A DNA stretch of 64,000 bases from Halobellus clavatus (lineage in GTDB: Archaea; Halobacteriota; Halobacteria; Halobacteriales; Haloferacaceae), in assembly GCF_900107195.1 (NCBI RefSeq), contig NZ_FNPB01000008.1:62001-126000 (forward strand), read 5' to 3'. Below the pieces are notes generated by a model. That model was not told the origin of the DNA. It made no database searches and saw nothing but the letters and a program-made list of their open reading frames with translations. Shown one piece after another: positions 40,379 to 46,782 of this stretch. Every line of letters begins with the position of its first letter. Positions within the stretch are counted from its first letter, which is position 1. The translations under genes were made by a program, and so were the position numbers.

Positions 40379-41263
40379 TCACATCTCCGCGCCCTGTTCG
40401 TCGATCGCGTCCGCCGCGATCGACCGGCCACGGGCGTTGAGTTCCACCTCGTGACGGATCCGCACCTCGTCGAGGACGTCGTGATCGATCAGTCGGACGA
40501 AGAGCTCTTCGACCTGATCGACGTCGATGCCGAGGAACTGCGGGATGTCGAACGGTGACACACCGGAGTACAGCGCCATCAGCACCTGTTTGTCCTGCAT
40601 CGAGAGATCCAGCGACGTCTCGGTCTGCTCCTCGCCGATTCGGAGGAGCGACTTCAGGATACTCACGGCTCGTTCGGGGCCGGAGACGTACGTCTGCACG
40701 CTCGTCCCCTCGCTGTCGGAGTGTTCGACTTCGATGACCTCGCGGGGTTCCTCGCGGACAGTCCGTCGGCCCATCTCGATGTCACCGATGTCGTCGAGGC
40801 GGATCTCGACGAAGGTCCCAGAGACGGTCGCGACGCTGACGGACTCCTCTTCGACCTTCATCCGCGCACCCTCCCACTCGGTGTTCTGCACCACGCCGCC
40901 CTCGACGGCCGGGTGGCGGACGAGGAACTTCGTCGAAGAGAGGAGGGCGTCGTAGAGGTCCATCTCGAACTCCTCGAAATCGGCGGGTGCGATGAGGATC
41001 ACGTTCTCGCCGTCGTCGAACTGCAGCGCGAGGTAGTCCGAGACGGTAGCGACGCGCTGGTTCACGTCGAACCGTCCGCCGACCCGGTCGATGGCGTCGA
41101 GCCGGAACGTGCGTTTCCCGCCCGTCCCCGCCAGAACGATTCGCTTGTTCGATAAGAGAATACGTCCGTTGGTCCAGCCGGCGTCGTTCCGTTCGCGACC
41201 GTCACGGAGGGCTCTCAGGAACTCCCCTCGTGTGTCAGCGATCTTCGTTTCGCCGGGTTGCAC
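40379..41263 (-). CDS. cheF: taxis protein CheF
   Basis: A 294-residue archaea-specific adaptor linking the Che system (CheY, CheC, CheD) to the archaellum motor proteins. It begins MQPGETKIADTRGEFLRAL; the DUF439-type core spans most of the length and a C-terminal winged-helix-like part has LSMQDKQVLMALYSGVSPFD. It follows cheR by 6 bp on the same strand, so it belongs to the cheB-cheA-cheR-cheF operon. Confidence 0.88.
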   Translation of the reverse strand: MQPGETKIADTRGEFLRALRDGRERNDAGWTNGRILLSNKRIVLAGTGGKRTFRLDAIDRVGGRFDVNQRVATVSDYLALQFDDGENVILIAPADFEEFEMDLYDALLSSTKFLVRHPAVEGGVVQNTEWEGARMKVEEESVSVATVSGTFVEIRLDDIGDIEMGRRTVREEPREVIEVEHSDSEGTSVQTYVSGPERAVSILKSLLRIGEEQTETSLDLSMQDKQVLMALYSGVSPFDIPQFLGIDVDQVEELFVRLIDHDVLDEVRIRHEVELNARGRSIAADAIDEQGAEM

Positions 41264-41269
41264 GCGTGC

Positions 41270-42163
41270 TCACCTCCGTGAGCGGTTTCTGGACCGCGAC
41301 CCACCGTCGCCGGCGTCACTGGCGTCGCGGTAGATTCGGAGCCGTTTCTCCACCGGATCGAACCGGTCACGACAGGAACTCGGTATCGTCTCCGTCATTC
41401 CGATCGTGAGGTATCCGCCGGATTCGACGGCCGAACTCAGCGTCTCGAAGATCGCCTCCTTCGCCTCTCGGTTGATGTAAATGAAGAGGTTTCGACAAAT
41501 GACCAGATCGAACGTCTGCGGCGGGTCCTCTTGGACCAGGTCGTGTTTCCGGAACGAGACCAGGTCTTTCACCTCGTCGGTGACGCTAAACGTGTCCCCG
41601 TCGCGTTCGACGTACTGGGCGTTGCCCGCCAGCGGTTCGAGTTGTTCTTCGAGGTCGTTGGTCTCGGAGGCGTGATACTCACCGCGTCGGGCGGCCCGCA
41701 GGATCTCGGGTTTGATGTCGGTCCCGAGGATCTCGACCTTCCGCTCGTTGATCCGGTCGTCGTCGAGCGCCAACATTGCCGCGGAGTACGCCTCCCGGCC
41801 GTCGGAACTGGCGGCGCTCCAGATCCGCGTTCGCCCGTCTTGGCTGAGTTCAGCGATGATCTCCCGGAGCGACTCCCAGACCTCGGGGTTGCGGAAGAAG
41901 CTGGTGACGTTGACGCTGAGCGCGTTCAACAGCGCCTCACGCTCGTCGTCGTCCTCCGCGAGCAGGTCTTGATACACGCCGTACTCGTCGATTCGCTGGC
42001 GACGCATCCGGGCGGAGATCCGGCGGTCGAGATACGAGCGGTTGTACGAACTCGTCGCGAACGACAGCGAGGACTCGACGTACTCCAGCAACTCCTCGAA
42101 CCCCTCGTCGTCCTCGTCGGCGTCGTCGTCGGACCCCGAGCCGATGTCGATGTCCAACCCCAT
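41270..42163 (-). CDS. cheR: chemotaxis protein methyltransferase CheR
   Basis: A 297-residue SAM-dependent methyltransferase that methylates glutamates on transducers. VTSFFRNPEVWESL (methyl-acceptor/active-site region) and FDLVICRNLFIYIN are seen; the SAM loop reads SAASSDGREAYS rather than the common SAACSTGEEPYS. The ATG overlaps the cheA stop by 1 bp. An upstream extension to 42214 is not used because the overlap gives the natural start. It acts together with cheB upstream. Confidence 0.92.
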   Translation of the reverse strand: MGLDIDIGSGSDDDADEDDEGFEELLEYVESSLSFATSSYNRSYLDRRISARMRRQRIDEYGVYQDLLAEDDDEREALLNALSVNVTSFFRNPEVWESLREIIAELSQDGRTRIWSAASSDGREAYSAAMLALDDDRINERKVEILGTDIKPEILRAARRGEYHASETNDLEEQLEPLAGNAQYVERDGDTFSVTDEVKDLVSFRKHDLVQEDPPQTFDLVICRNLFIYINREAKEAIFETLSSAVESGGYLTIGMTETIPSSCRDRFDPVEKRLRIYRDASDAGDGGSRSRNRSRR

Positions 42164-44772
42164 CAGTCGGCTGCCCCCTCTGCTTCGGCGGCGTCGTCTT
42201 CCGGCGGGGCCCACTGGCGGCGAGCCTGCTTGCCCTGTTCCGGGATCGAGAGGGAGTTCACGTCGAGGATCGGCACGACGTTCCCGTCGCCCACGACGGC
42301 CGTCCCCGAGAGCCCCTCAGTCCCCTTGAGCGGCCCCTGCAGCGGCGTGACGACGACTTCTTCCTGCCGCGAGACGCTGTCACATCGGAGCGCGACCTGC
42401 CGGTCGGCCGGCCGGATCCGGACGGTCATACCGGCCTCGTGGCGCGGCCCGTCGATATCGAGCGCCTCTCGGAGTCGGATCAGCGGGAAGATGCGCTCCT
42501 CATGGACGATGACCTCCGCGCCGTCGACGCGCTCGACGCGGGACTGCTGGGAGACCTCGTCGATGTACTTGATCGGAACGCCGAACTCCCGGTCGCCGAT
42601 CCGGACGAAGAGGACCTTGATGATCGCGACCGACACCGGCAGTCGAATCGAAATGGTCGTCCCCTCGCCGAGTGTACTCTCGACGTTGACCGACCCGTCG
42701 AGCGACTCGACGGTGGTCTTGACGACGTCCATCCCGACACCGCGGCCGCTGACGTCGGTGATCTCTTCGTTGGTCGAAAAGCCCGGGTGGAAGATGTAGT
42801 CGTACACTTCGCTGTCGGTCAGCTCTGCGAGTTCGCTCCGCGGGCGGATCCCCTTCTCGGCCGCTTTGTCTCTGATCACGTCGGCGTCGATGCCGCCCCC
42901 GTCGTCCTCGACGGTGATGACGACCGTGTCGTGTTCGCGCTCCGCTCGGAGTTCGACCGACCCGGTCTTCGGTTTGCCGACCGATTCGCGCTCCTCGGGG
43001 GGCTCGATCCCGTGGTCGACCGCGTTGCGGAGCACGTGCATCAGCGGGTCGGAGATCTCGTCGAGAATCGTCCGGTCGAGTTCGATGTCCTGTCCCTCGA
43101 CGGAGAAGTCCACTCGCTTGTCCTGATCCCGCGCGAGGTCCCGCACCAGCCGCGGGAACTTGTCGAACACCTTCTTCAGCGGGATCAGCCGCATATCCAT
43201 CACGGTGTCTTGGAGGTCCGAGGAGATCTTGTCGAGTTCGTCGAGCGTGTCGCGGCCGGCGGAGTCGTCCGCGCCGAGCGCCTGACGGAGTTTGATCCGG
43301 CTCGTGACCAGTTGCTCGACGAGGCTGTGGAGTTCGTCCAGTTGGTCGACGTCGACGCGGACCGACTTCACCGCGGAGATCGAGCGGGCCTCCTCCTCCT
43401 CGGAGTCCTCTTCGGCTCCCCCCTCGTCGGTGTCACCACCACGCTCGTCGGGCTCGGCGGCCCCGTCGTCGGTGTCGGCTGTGCGCTCGTCGGGTTCCGC
43501 GTCACCGTCGCCCGCTTGATGGGCAGGCGAATCGTCGGTCGATTCGTCCTCGGCCGCCTCGAACCCAGCCGCAGCCAGATCGGCATCGGTCTCCTCCGGG
43601 ACCGCTTCGATGGCTGGTTCGCCCGCCTCCGCTTCTGCGGGCGTCCCGTCGTCCGATCCAGTCGCAGCGGATTCGCCATCGCCCTCGCCGCCGGAATCGT
43701 CGGTCGAGCCGCTCTCGGCGTCGTCATCCGACGATTCGCCGTCAGTGTAGGCACTGACCACGGCGTCGACCGCCGCGGCCGCGGAGTCGGTGTCGACGTC
43801 CTCGGTGGGCGTAGCGGTCGAAACGGCGGGTGCGGACTCGTCCGCCGCGTCGTCCGGTGTCGGTCCCTCGGTGCCGGCGGCACTGCCATCCGCGTCCGCC
43901 CCGGCGTCGGAACCGCCTGCGGTCGCCGAGTCGCCGTCCACTCCCCCATCGGTGTCCTCGACGATAGCGGTGACGTCGGTGAGCGTCACCGACTCGACCT
44001 TCCAGAGATCCCACAGGGTCTCTTCGAGGTCGCCCCGCTCTTCGTCGGCGATGTAGACGACGAACGTTTCGCCGAAGTCGCCCGCTTCGATCCGATCCAG
44101 GCTCGGGTCGGCCCCGACAACCCCGAGGTCTTCCGGCAGCCCCTGGACGAATAGCCCGCCGTCGACGCCCTTCATATCGCCGACGTTCAGCGCGATCTCT
44201 GCGCTGTGGAGCCGGTCGGCGTCCGCGACGGCAGGATCGTCGAGTTCGAGCGCCTCGGCCGCGGCTTCGACCGCCTGCCCCGCATCCGATTCGGTGCTCT
44301 CCGCGTCGTCCGCGCCGCTCTCCGCGTCGTCGTCCGGAGTGCTCTCTGCGTCCGCCCCGTCCGGCGCCGATTCGGCGTCAGCCTCGTCGCCCTCGACGGG
44401 CTCTGCGGCCGCGCGGATCTCGTCGACGAGGTCGCTGGGGTCCCGCGTGGACTCGCCGTTCTTCTCGATCTCGTGGAGGATGTCGAGGATCTCGTCCATC
44501 CCGTCGAAGACCAGGTCCATCCGCTCGTGAGTCACCTCGATCCGGTCGTTGCGGACCTCATCGAGCAGGTCCTCGACGGCGTGAGCCACCTTCGCCGCGT
44601 CGTCGAAGCCCATCGCACCGAAGTTCCCCTTCAGGGTGTGTGCCTGCCGGAAGATGTCGTCGATCGCCTCGTCGTCCTCGGGGTTCGATTCGAGATCCAA
44701 GAGGGAGTTGTTCAACTGGGTGATGCTCTCTTCTGACTCGGTGATGAATTCCTGGTAAAGTTCGTCGTCCAT
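42163..44772 (-). CDS. cheA: chemotaxis histidine kinase CheA
   Basis: An 869-residue kinase. P1 HPt has the phospho-histidine in FRQAHTLKGNFGAMGF (His45). A P2-like domain lies at about 190-280. A long acidic Ser/Asp-rich linker occupies about 280-480. P3 dimerisation (VRVDVDQLDELHSLVEQLVT), the HATPase domain (LRNAVDHGIE, DDGGGIDA, GRGVGMDVV) and a C-terminal CheW-like domain follow. The linker is much longer than in bacterial CheA (about 650-700 residues), a haloarchaeal trait. Starts 3 bp after cheB. Confidence 0.94.
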   Translation of the reverse strand: MDDELYQEFITESEESITQLNNSLLDLESNPEDDEAIDDIFRQAHTLKGNFGAMGFDDAAKVAHAVEDLLDEVRNDRIEVTHERMDLVFDGMDEILDILHEIEKNGESTRDPSDLVDEIRAAAEPVEGDEADAESAPDGADAESTPDDDAESGADDAESTESDAGQAVEAAAEALELDDPAVADADRLHSAEIALNVGDMKGVDGGLFVQGLPEDLGVVGADPSLDRIEAGDFGETFVVYIADEERGDLEETLWDLWKVESVTLTDVTAIVEDTDGGVDGDSATAGGSDAGADADGSAAGTEGPTPDDAADESAPAVSTATPTEDVDTDSAAAAVDAVVSAYTDGESSDDDAESGSTDDSGGEGDGESAATGSDDGTPAEAEAGEPAIEAVPEETDADLAAAGFEAAEDESTDDSPAHQAGDGDAEPDERTADTDDGAAEPDERGGDTDEGGAEEDSEEEEARSISAVKSVRVDVDQLDELHSLVEQLVTSRIKLRQALGADDSAGRDTLDELDKISSDLQDTVMDMRLIPLKKVFDKFPRLVRDLARDQDKRVDFSVEGQDIELDRTILDEISDPLMHVLRNAVDHGIEPPEERESVGKPKTGSVELRAEREHDTVVITVEDDGGGIDADVIRDKAAEKGIRPRSELAELTDSEVYDYIFHPGFSTNEEITDVSGRGVGMDVVKTTVESLDGSVNVESTLGEGTTISIRLPVSVAIIKVLFVRIGDREFGVPIKYIDEVSQQSRVERVDGAEVIVHEERIFPLIRLREALDIDGPRHEAGMTVRIRPADRQVALRCDSVSRQEEVVVTPLQGPLKGTEGLSGTAVVGDGNVVPILDVNSLSIPEQGKQARRQWAPPEDDAAEAEGAAD

Positions 44773-44775
44773 AGG

Positions 44776-45993
44776 TCACTCCTCCGCGAAGTACTGCAGT
44801 GCATTCTCGGCGATTTCGCCCGCCGGCGCCACGTCGTCGACACAGTCGGCTTCGATTGCCCGTCGGGGCATCCCGAAGATCGCCGAGGTCTCCTCGTCTT
44901 GGGCGACAGTGTGACCGCCGCTCCCAGCGACGCGCTGGAGCCCATCGACCCCGTCGCGGCCCATCCCCGTCAGGAGGACCGCACAGAGCGGCCCATCGAC
45001 GGTCTCTGCGGCCGCAGCCATCGTAACGTCGATTGCGGGTCTCACCCCGTGGATCGGTTCGCTCTCGGTGAGTTCGAGTTCCAGTCGACCGCTCCGGTCA
45101 GACGTCGTGAGCAAATGGTGGCCCCCCGGGGCGACCCGGGCTTCACCCGGTCCGATCCGCTCGCCGGACGTCGCTTCCGTGACGGTGTAGGACGACCGGC
45201 CGTCGAGACGGTCCGCGAAGCGCGTCGTGAACCCTTCTGGCATGTGTTGAACCACGAGCACGCGGAGGTTCGCGTCCGTCGGCAGACCGCCGAGGACCCG
45301 CTCGACGACTGCCGGACCGCCGGTCGATGCGCCAACGACGAGCGTGCCCACGTCCGGGTACGACGACGCTGACCCGCTCGCGCTGGCCGCTCCCGTCGAA
45401 CTCCGACTGTCGCTCCGTCCGAGCCCGCTCGCGCCCCCGGCGGCTGTGGGGTCGCTGCTCGCCTCGCCGGATGTCGATCCGGCGGTTGCCGCGCCGCCAC
45501 CGGCCGATCCGGCCCCGCCACGCCCACTCGATGATCGACCGGTGGCCCGCACGTCCGCCGAGAGATCGACGCGAGCGGCGGACTCGACCTTCTCGACCAG
45601 TTCGCGTTTCACGCGCGGCATCGACGACGTGACCTCGCCGCCCGGCTTCGTCACGAAGTCGACCGCGCCCCGCTCAAGTGCCTTGAAGGTCACGTCTGCG
45701 TCCTCCTCGGCGTGTGCCGAGAGCATCAACACGGGCGTGGGGTGATCTGCCATAATCGCCTCGACAGCCTCGAGCCCGTTCATCGAGGGCATCTCGATGT
45801 CCATCGTCACGACGTCCGGATCGTGTTCGACGACCGCATCGAGCGCGTCCGAGCCGTCCGCTGCCTCGCCGACGACCTCGACGCCGCCCTCCTCGAGGAG
45901 ACTCCGGATCAGGGTGCGCATGAACCGCGAGTCATCGACGACGACCGCGCGGGTCGATCCCTCGCTCCCGCCCGGTTCGGAGGCCGCGCTCAC
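44776..45993 (-). CDS. cheB: chemotaxis methylesterase CheB
   Basis: A 405-residue response regulator/methylesterase starting at GTG. The receiver has Asp20/21, phospho-acceptor Asp65 in VVTMDIEMPSMNG and Lys116 in FVTKPGG. The esterase has Ser in VVGASTGGPAV, His in VQHMPEGF and Asp in LTGMGRDGVDG. The Ala/Ser/Gly linker (about residues 150-225) is long. The GTG overlaps the stop of the 56-codon frame at 45990-46160. CheB demethylates and deamidates transducers, opposing CheR. Confidence 0.92.
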   Translation of the reverse strand: MSAASEPGGSEGSTRAVVVDDSRFMRTLIRSLLEEGGVEVVGEAADGSDALDAVVEHDPDVVTMDIEMPSMNGLEAVEAIMADHPTPVLMLSAHAEEDADVTFKALERGAVDFVTKPGGEVTSSMPRVKRELVEKVESAARVDLSADVRATGRSSSGRGGAGSAGGGAATAGSTSGEASSDPTAAGGASGLGRSDSRSSTGAASASGSASSYPDVGTLVVGASTGGPAVVERVLGGLPTDANLRVLVVQHMPEGFTTRFADRLDGRSSYTVTEATSGERIGPGEARVAPGGHHLLTTSDRSGRLELELTESEPIHGVRPAIDVTMAAAAETVDGPLCAVLLTGMGRDGVDGLQRVAGSGGHTVAQDEETSAIFGMPRRAIEADCVDDVAPAGEIAENALQYFAEE

Positions 45994-46160
45994 CGGTCCG
46001 CACCCCCGTTGTCGACCACGGCGATACCTCGCTCGTCGCGTGTTGCCGCGTGCGGTCCGATCGTGCGGCCCGCCAGACGGCCGCCGAATACCTCGGACGC
46101 ACACTGCCGGCGGTCCGGCGTCGGAGTCGACTTCCCCGCGGCATACTCGTACCCGCTCAT
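45990..46160 (-). CDS. 56-residue frame translationally coupled to cheB
   Basis: An ATG at 46160 (minus strand) opens a 57-codon frame beginning MSGYEYAAGKSTPT. Its TGA shares two bases with the cheB GTG, forming a GTGA overlap. A TATA-like cttaagt (minus strand, 46192-46186) is about 26-32 nt upstream of the ATG, fitting a leaderless transcript. The product has no recognised motif. The sequence is not in the usual haloarchaeal cheB neighbourhood as I recall it. Alternatively cheB has its own leader and this is chance; the combination of TATA, ATG and overlap argues otherwise. Confidence 0.5.
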   Translation of the reverse strand: MSGYEYAAGKSTPTPDRRQCASEVFGGRLAGRTIGPHAATRDERGIAVVDNGGADR

Positions 46161-46232
46161 CTATACTTGCACTTCCGAATTGGGGGACTTAAGCACTCGC
46201 CGGCGAAAATCATCACTGATAATAGCGTGCGT

Positions 46233-46296: not shown

Positions 46297-46782
46297 ATGT
46301 CCCAAGAACAAACTGCGGCGGCGGGCGCGTCCGCACCCACCGCCACCGACGACACCGACGCTACCGCCCGCAAGATGCAGGTCCTCGAGTTCGAACTGGG
46401 GGGCGAAACGTACTGTGTCGACATCGACTACGTCTCTGAAATCGTCGATCGGGGCTCGCTCACGGCGGTTCCGAACGCGCCCGAGTTCGTCGAAGGCGTG
46501 ATGGACCTCCGCGGCCGGACGACGTCGATCGTGAATCCGAAGACGCTCCTGAACGTCGAAGACACGGGCGAGGCCAGCCGGATCGTCATCTTCGACGCCA
46601 GCAAATTCAAAGACGATGCCGCCGTCGGGTGGCTCGTCGACGAAGTCGACCAGGTCGTCCGCGTCTCGATGGACGACGTCGAGGATCCGCCGATGGAGCG
46701 CGGGGAGTTCATCGAGGGAATCGTCCGCCGCGAGGAGGGGCTCGTGGTCTGGATCTCCCCGACGAGTACGACGTCGAACTGA
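46297..46782 (+). CDS. cheW: chemotaxis adaptor CheW
   Basis: A 161-residue CheW that couples transducers to CheA. LEFELGGETYCVDIDYVSEI, VPNAPEFVEGVMDLRGRTT and VGWLVDEVDQVVRV are the family signatures. The C terminus ends VVWISPTSTTSN. The ATG is preceded by a 30-nt region and it diverges from cheB. The upstream in-frame extension to 45712 covers cheB on the other strand and is rejected. Confidence 0.93.
   Translation: MSQEQTAAAGASAPTATDDTDATARKMQVLEFELGGETYCVDIDYVSEIVDRGSLTAVPNAPEFVEGVMDLRGRTTSIVNPKTLLNVEDTGEASRIVIFDASKFKDDAAVGWLVDEVDQVVRVSMDDVEDPPMERGEFIEGIVRREEGLVVWISPTSTTSN

Follow-up and report, generated by a model that had tools for sequence, protein, structure and literature searches.

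A leader reading frame before cheB in Halobellus clavatus and its probable part in delivering ribosomes to the che operon

How is the first gene of a chemotaxis operon translated when a short reading frame occupies the space between its promoter and its start codon? The question is raised by a 64,000-nucleotide stretch of Halobellus clavatus DNA (the window, taken at its full length), in which a minus-strand frame of 56 codons plus a stop, found in the sequence and in the list of open reading frames and here called the uORF, extends over 46160..45990. It is of the leaderless type, opening with an ATG at 46160-46158 and closing with a TGA at 45992-45990 that overlaps the GTG of cheB at 45993-45991; the resulting 4-nt GTGA at 45993-45990 (minus strand) is a stop-start overlap of the kind seen in termination-reinitiation (TeRe) coupled pairs and the proposed site of reinitiation. 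A weak Shine-Dalgarno-like stretch, GGGGGTG (46001..46007, minus strand; a 4-nt match), lies within the end of the uORF, 5' of the cheB GTG. The original prediction for this DNA had described a 56-codon minus-strand frame that starts about 30 nt after a TATA-like cttaagt and ends in a GTGA overlap with cheB, and this description proves accurate, the A of the ATG lying 33 nt from the first base and 27 nt from the last base of the TATA-like element.

The cheB gene itself (44776..45993, minus strand; 405 aa; receiver and CheB methylesterase domains by Pfam) starts with GTG, and in the 130 nt ahead of its conserved core GTG 45993 is the sole start codon. It is followed on the same strand by cheA (42163..44772), whose start lies 3 nt past the cheB stop (TGA CCT ATG), by cheR (41270..42163), whose start shares 1 nt with the cheA stop (TGATG), and by cheF (CheF-arch; 40379..41263), which begins with a GTG 6 nt past the cheR stop and has GGAGGTGA in front; all of these junctions, between 41264 and 44775 of the minus strand, are tight. 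Across the intergenic region lies the divergent cheW (CheW domain; stretch searched, 46297..46782 of the plus strand), the intergenic side of which served as a frame-free control. For H. volcanii, transposon insertions between cheB and cheW1 have been published (PMC5198076). A plasmid collection was also searched for cheB, and no match was obtained.

The promoter module and the position of the leader frame

The promoter of the cheB operon contains the TATA-like CTTAAGT (46187..46193, minus strand), which has TTTAAG as its counterpart in Halogeometricum and TTTATATA in Haloferax, together with a partly symmetric element, ATTATCAGTGATGATT (46208..46223, minus strand), in which ATTATCA and TGATT flank GTGA and the TATCA begins 61 nt before the uORF ATG. 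This element matches the motif of CsmR, published for H. volcanii from ChIP-seq as TATCA(N4)TGATA (Nussbaum et al. 2026, June, PMC13286277); in that species the deletion of csmR raises the CheB/A/R/F1 transcripts (PMC13286277). In the window TGATT replaces TGATA and the TATA-like element adjoins, as in the sequence of a CsmR-regulated promoter, the ChIP-seq data behind the motif being those of H. volcanii and the Halobellus site being known from its sequence match.

The distance from the start of TATCA-N4-TGAT to that of the TATA-like element is exactly 28 nt in 71 of the 73 related loci where both were found, and a search of seven genomes for the motif and a TATA at this spacing returned the cheB and cheY promoters plus some others. 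The cheY gene, with its unambiguous start, has its ATG at +57 to +60 from the start of the motif; other motif genes, where an ATG occurs in range, mostly have it at 58-60 nt, and the uORF ATG lies at +60 to +63 across loci (in the window at +61, and 33 nt from the TATA-like start). Because cheY and the other motif genes have their ATGs at a matching distance from the motif, the uORF ATG is placed at the position of a leaderless start codon, and the module that it shares with cheY argues, by inference from sequence, for leaderless initiation at that ATG.

Copies of the module occur elsewhere. The motif and TATA at 28 nt also precede cheY in the same genome (G000:C9:2997-3029) and both the cheB and the cheY operons in related genera, so that the CsmR promoter module appears to reach beyond Haloferax. 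A second exact ATTATCA-N4-TGATT, situated outside the window (L133:1882-1945; G000:C12:135881-135941), precedes a histidine-kinase-like gene, 58 nt ahead of its ATG; at the customary 28 nt, no TATA of the form used in the search was found. Similarly, a CsmR-type motif with a TATA at the standard distance accompanies a family of small membrane-like proteins of 144-168 aa (MTRWRxVxAGFxLAACSEALVF...), represented at loci L162, L180, L188 and L190 (each at about position 1500) in four genomes including that of H. clavatus; this family is possibly an unrecognised member of the motility regulon.

Retention of the frame among relatives

In a small background scan of the window, cheB alone among 53 crudely called genes had the layout of a promoter, an ATG and a stop at the start of the gene, and a random frame would produce this layout at the window locus alone with P ~0.17. 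The frame at a single locus is weak evidence; with the relatives added, comparison of their sequences takes it far beyond chance. A promoter-proximal ATG opens a frame of 18-56 aa that ends in a 4-nt ATGA or GTGA overlap with cheB at 44 of 44 loci, spread over six genera (Halobellus 11, Haloferax 12, Haloplanus 10, Halogeometricum 5, Salinigranum 4, g7 2), and its length varies even between species of one genus. In most of the Haloferax species examined, the uORF ATG stands 107 nt ahead of the cheB ATG. On a cheB DNA tree of 41 taxa (three Salinigranum loci are absent as too short, not as out of frame), the distance from the ATG to cheB changed at least 17 times, each time by a multiple of 3, which gives (1/3)^17 = 8e-9; this and the other P values assume independence of lineages or indels and hinge on the choice of cheB start, and since lineages are not fully independent they are to be read as guides. 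The opposite side of the intergenic region supplied a control: in the same genera, motif-to-cheW distances fall into all three classes modulo 3, and the commonest class holds 8 of the 21 distinct distances, whereas on the uORF side a single class holds 16 of 16 (Fisher p = 6e-5). Shuffles with a random frame served as the null, a fixed-length null being uninformative since the frame is retained; counting stops within the uORF span was given up, since by definition the uORF frame contains none.

The same loci bear on where cheB begins. In the window the cheB frame is open up to GTG 46104, from which a protein of 442 aa could be read, and a start at the promoter-proximal ATG could likewise be imagined if a sequencing error had shifted the frame; that cheB starts farther upstream in either manner is scarcely credible. 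The longer N-terminus was rejected because this stretch is interrupted by in-frame stops in H. salinus and H. captivus, and its residues are unrelated in other Halobellus; a sequencing error was ruled out because the identical out-of-frame layout is shared by 44 loci.

Across the class Halobacteria, 19 of 21 lineage types have a uORF that either overlaps cheB by at most 10 nt or stops at most 5 nt short of it, measured from a cheB start; random-frame shuffles lead one to expect 4.7 of 21 (P ~7e-12 if the types are independent); the two misses are Halobium, with a 14-nt overlap, and Halorhabdus, with a 15-nt gap. The form of the junction varies: it is TGA-n-ATG in Haloarcula, TAG-n-ATG in Halorientalis marina, directly adjacent or TAATG in other Halorientalis and TGATG in two Halovenus, while Halosimplex has a 10-nt overlap of uORF and cheB, and Halonotius and Halohasta have 8-nt overlaps (GTGCGTAA, ATGCGTAA). 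Outside the 21-type count, a few genomes, Halapricum among them, have no such frame upstream of cheB, and Halorubrum has a matching promoter module with the ATG of cheB itself at the leaderless position. At the Halorubrum loci L122, L125, L129 and L132, cheB lies 30 nt from the TATA-like start and there is no uORF, which offers a natural comparison for uORF loss. The uORF is not indispensable, as the leaderless position of cheB in Halorubrum and the lack in Halorhabdus of a uORF stop near cheB indicate.

These data also bear on the choice between a retained frame and an accidental one. If the frame were open by chance, in a 5' leader that is not translated, cheB would be initiated de novo at its GTG or ATG. 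This would accord with the P value of the window locus alone and with the scarcity of stops in GC-rich DNA, but it is a highly improbable explanation of a frame that has survived at least 17 length changes, whose stop placement is shared by those 19 lineage types and which faces a frame-free cheW side. The suggestion in the original prediction that cheB is coupled to the upstream frame, and hence has no promoter close by, gains strong comparative support, although coupling is here deduced from sequence: the frame and its stop position are kept in six genera without exception and, in variant form, across most of the class, and the promoter module stands at a fixed distance from the uORF ATG.

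In Halobacterium, Halorussus, Halomicrococcus, Haladaptatus and two Natrialbaceae, cheB is likewise preceded by a frame with a 4-nt ATGA overlap. The upstream frame there encodes the 120-aa CheY, that of the Halobellus-type layout a variable peptide; in the latter layout, cheY has its own promoter elsewhere. It may be speculated that the uORF is a relic of cheY; no residual likeness to CheY was seen when the uORF was judged by eye.

The encoded peptide

Conservation in relatives had been set beforehand as a test of the predicted small gene, and the outcome is divided, for the frame is kept and the peptide is not. A search with the uORF peptide among 119 genomes of the family gave weak matches in 114, nearly all with E of 0.01-1 and, among the matches listed, none at cheB; such weak and scattered matches are as chance would give. 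The best match outside (E 1.6e-4; 42% over 38 aa) came from G099, a genome of another genus, the matches within the genus having E of 0.03 or worse, and comparison with Pfam and NCBIfam yielded no match. When relatives whose uORFs have equal length were compared in seven groups, pN/pS was 0.66-1.49 for the uORF versus 0.07-0.18 for cheB; substitutions in the uORF are spread about evenly over codon positions, and the pooled G+C by codon position is 0.68/0.68/0.70 for the uORF versus 0.70/0.36/0.86 for cheB. A functional small protein should show purifying selection on its amino acids and homologues at the matching place in relatives, and neither was found. The lack of a clear homologue and the neutral evolution make it probable that the uORF is no functional protein gene, and on these grounds the idea of a small upstream protein lacks support.

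A real small-protein gene acting in taxis, to which the coupling would be incidental, is accordingly very improbable; in its favour, the first residues MSG(Q/Y/H) recur in Halobellus, Halogeometricum, g7 and Haloferax, but the uORF varies in length from 13 to 56 aa with unrelated sequences in other genera, lacks any clear sequence homologue or match in Pfam or NCBIfam, has a pN/pS of about 1 in the seven groups without a GC3 signal, and encodes a peptide of basic pI. Nor does it resemble a regulatory leader peptide or attenuator, as neither a conserved arrest peptide nor a conserved codon run was found among the relatives. The RNA fold around the cheB start gave nothing above shuffles (z-scores -0.84 to 0.10).

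Probable ribosome delivery and related systems

Very probably, as the comparative sequence evidence suggests, the uORF is a leaderless, peptide-independent frame that carries ribosomes to cheB, and then to cheA, cheR and cheF, by termination-reinitiation. Its length and letters vary freely while its stop stays at the cheB start, so that it is probably a ribosome carrier and not a useful small protein. To judge from the promoter geometry, the transcript would begin at the uORF ATG or a few nucleotides before it, and the promoter module upstream of the uORF would place the uORF and cheB on one transcript. Ribosomes would load on the 5'-terminal AUG as on other haloarchaeal leaderless mRNAs, translate the uORF, terminate at the TGA overlapping the cheB GTG and reinitiate at cheB, and the close junctions that follow (+3, -1 and +6 nt) would hand them on to cheA, cheR and cheF, with a presumed effect on the whole operon. 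Selection would then act on the frame and the stop position, leaving the peptide free.

In H. volcanii, 72% of the protein-coding transcripts are leaderless (PMC4983044), and of the overlapping or closely spaced gene pairs tested, 9 of 9 were strictly coupled (Huber et al. 2019, PMC6728339), whereas a separation of about 20 nt is stated to abolish coupling almost entirely (Huber et al. 2023, PMC10666635). Shine-Dalgarno motifs are reported there to give no support to de novo initiation (PMC6728339); among 78 related loci, SD-like matches of at least 5 nt stand before cheB in 33 and before the uORF ATG in 8, where shuffles expect 6, the match in the window being of only 4 nt. In coupled pairs, how much an SD motif in the 3' part of the first frame contributes is variable.

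The delivery of ribosomes might additionally be regulated. As a selected throttle or regulatory gate, the uORF would set the dose of CheB, CheA, CheR and CheF through reinitiation at less than full efficiency or through a link to the leaderless mode of initiation. This is a tentative and rather unlikely reading: the uORF persists though a direct leaderless cheB is possible, as in Halorubrum, and the same promoter family drives other genes without a uORF, but nothing able to act as a sensor was found, be it a conserved peptide, a codon run or an RNA fold. A throttle and a plain bridge would look alike in sequence, and the former is compatible with the delivery explanation rather than opposed to it. 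It is similarly doubtful, on the same footing, that the uORF is a dedicated and widely conserved control device, in which forced entry into the whole cheB-cheA-cheR-cheF operon by way of a leaderless AUG and reinitiation would set or switch the taxis dose whatever the peptide encoded, possibly in replacement of an ancestral cheY in first position.

Several known systems resemble parts of this arrangement. The haloarchaeal termination-reinitiation pairs (PMC6728339, PMC10666635) share with it the 4- or 1-nt overlap and a downstream gene without a nearby promoter, and their upstream frames end with an SD-like motif, for which the window has its weak 4-nt match; as described in the accessible text of these reports, both genes of a pair are protein-coding, whereas here the upstream frame is without protein selection and only frame and stop are kept, and cheB is not among the tested coupled pairs named in that text. 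The uORFs listed for long 5'-UTRs of H. volcanii (Babski et al. 2016, Table 2, PMC4983044) are likewise short frames between a mapped transcription start and a normal-sized gene; these are frames of 15-31 aa with low pI in leaders of 150-250 nt, and the available part of that report has no cheB (HVO_1224) in its list and describes no conserved overlap. Promoters of the CsmR regulon (PMC13286277) have a TATCA(N4)TGATA-type motif beside a TATA box, as here, but that work concerns transcription, and a search of its main text gave no mention of a reading frame lying between promoter and cheB. Some bicistronic designs (PMC10367133) likewise use a short leader frame to feed a downstream start, as would happen here on a leaderless promoter; in the available text those designs are engineered and bacterial, whereas the che uORF is a natural feature of archaea and is kept across much of the class. 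No description of the cheB leader frame was found in the open-access literature; termination-reinitiation is already known in haloarchaea, and a conserved, dedicated ribosome shuttle appears to be undescribed.

Such frames will escape homology-based annotation, which is a warning for the reading of related genomes. The locus presents a natural case in which a reading frame and its stop position are preserved while the encoded peptide drifts neutrally, and because the frame is kept while the peptide drifts, ribosome delivery becomes testable apart from protein function. The proposed reading predicts transcription and translation starts that can be checked in existing data for H. volcanii and, if true, would explain how the first gene of the che operon is translated at about 40-170 nt from the leaderless start point of its promoter.
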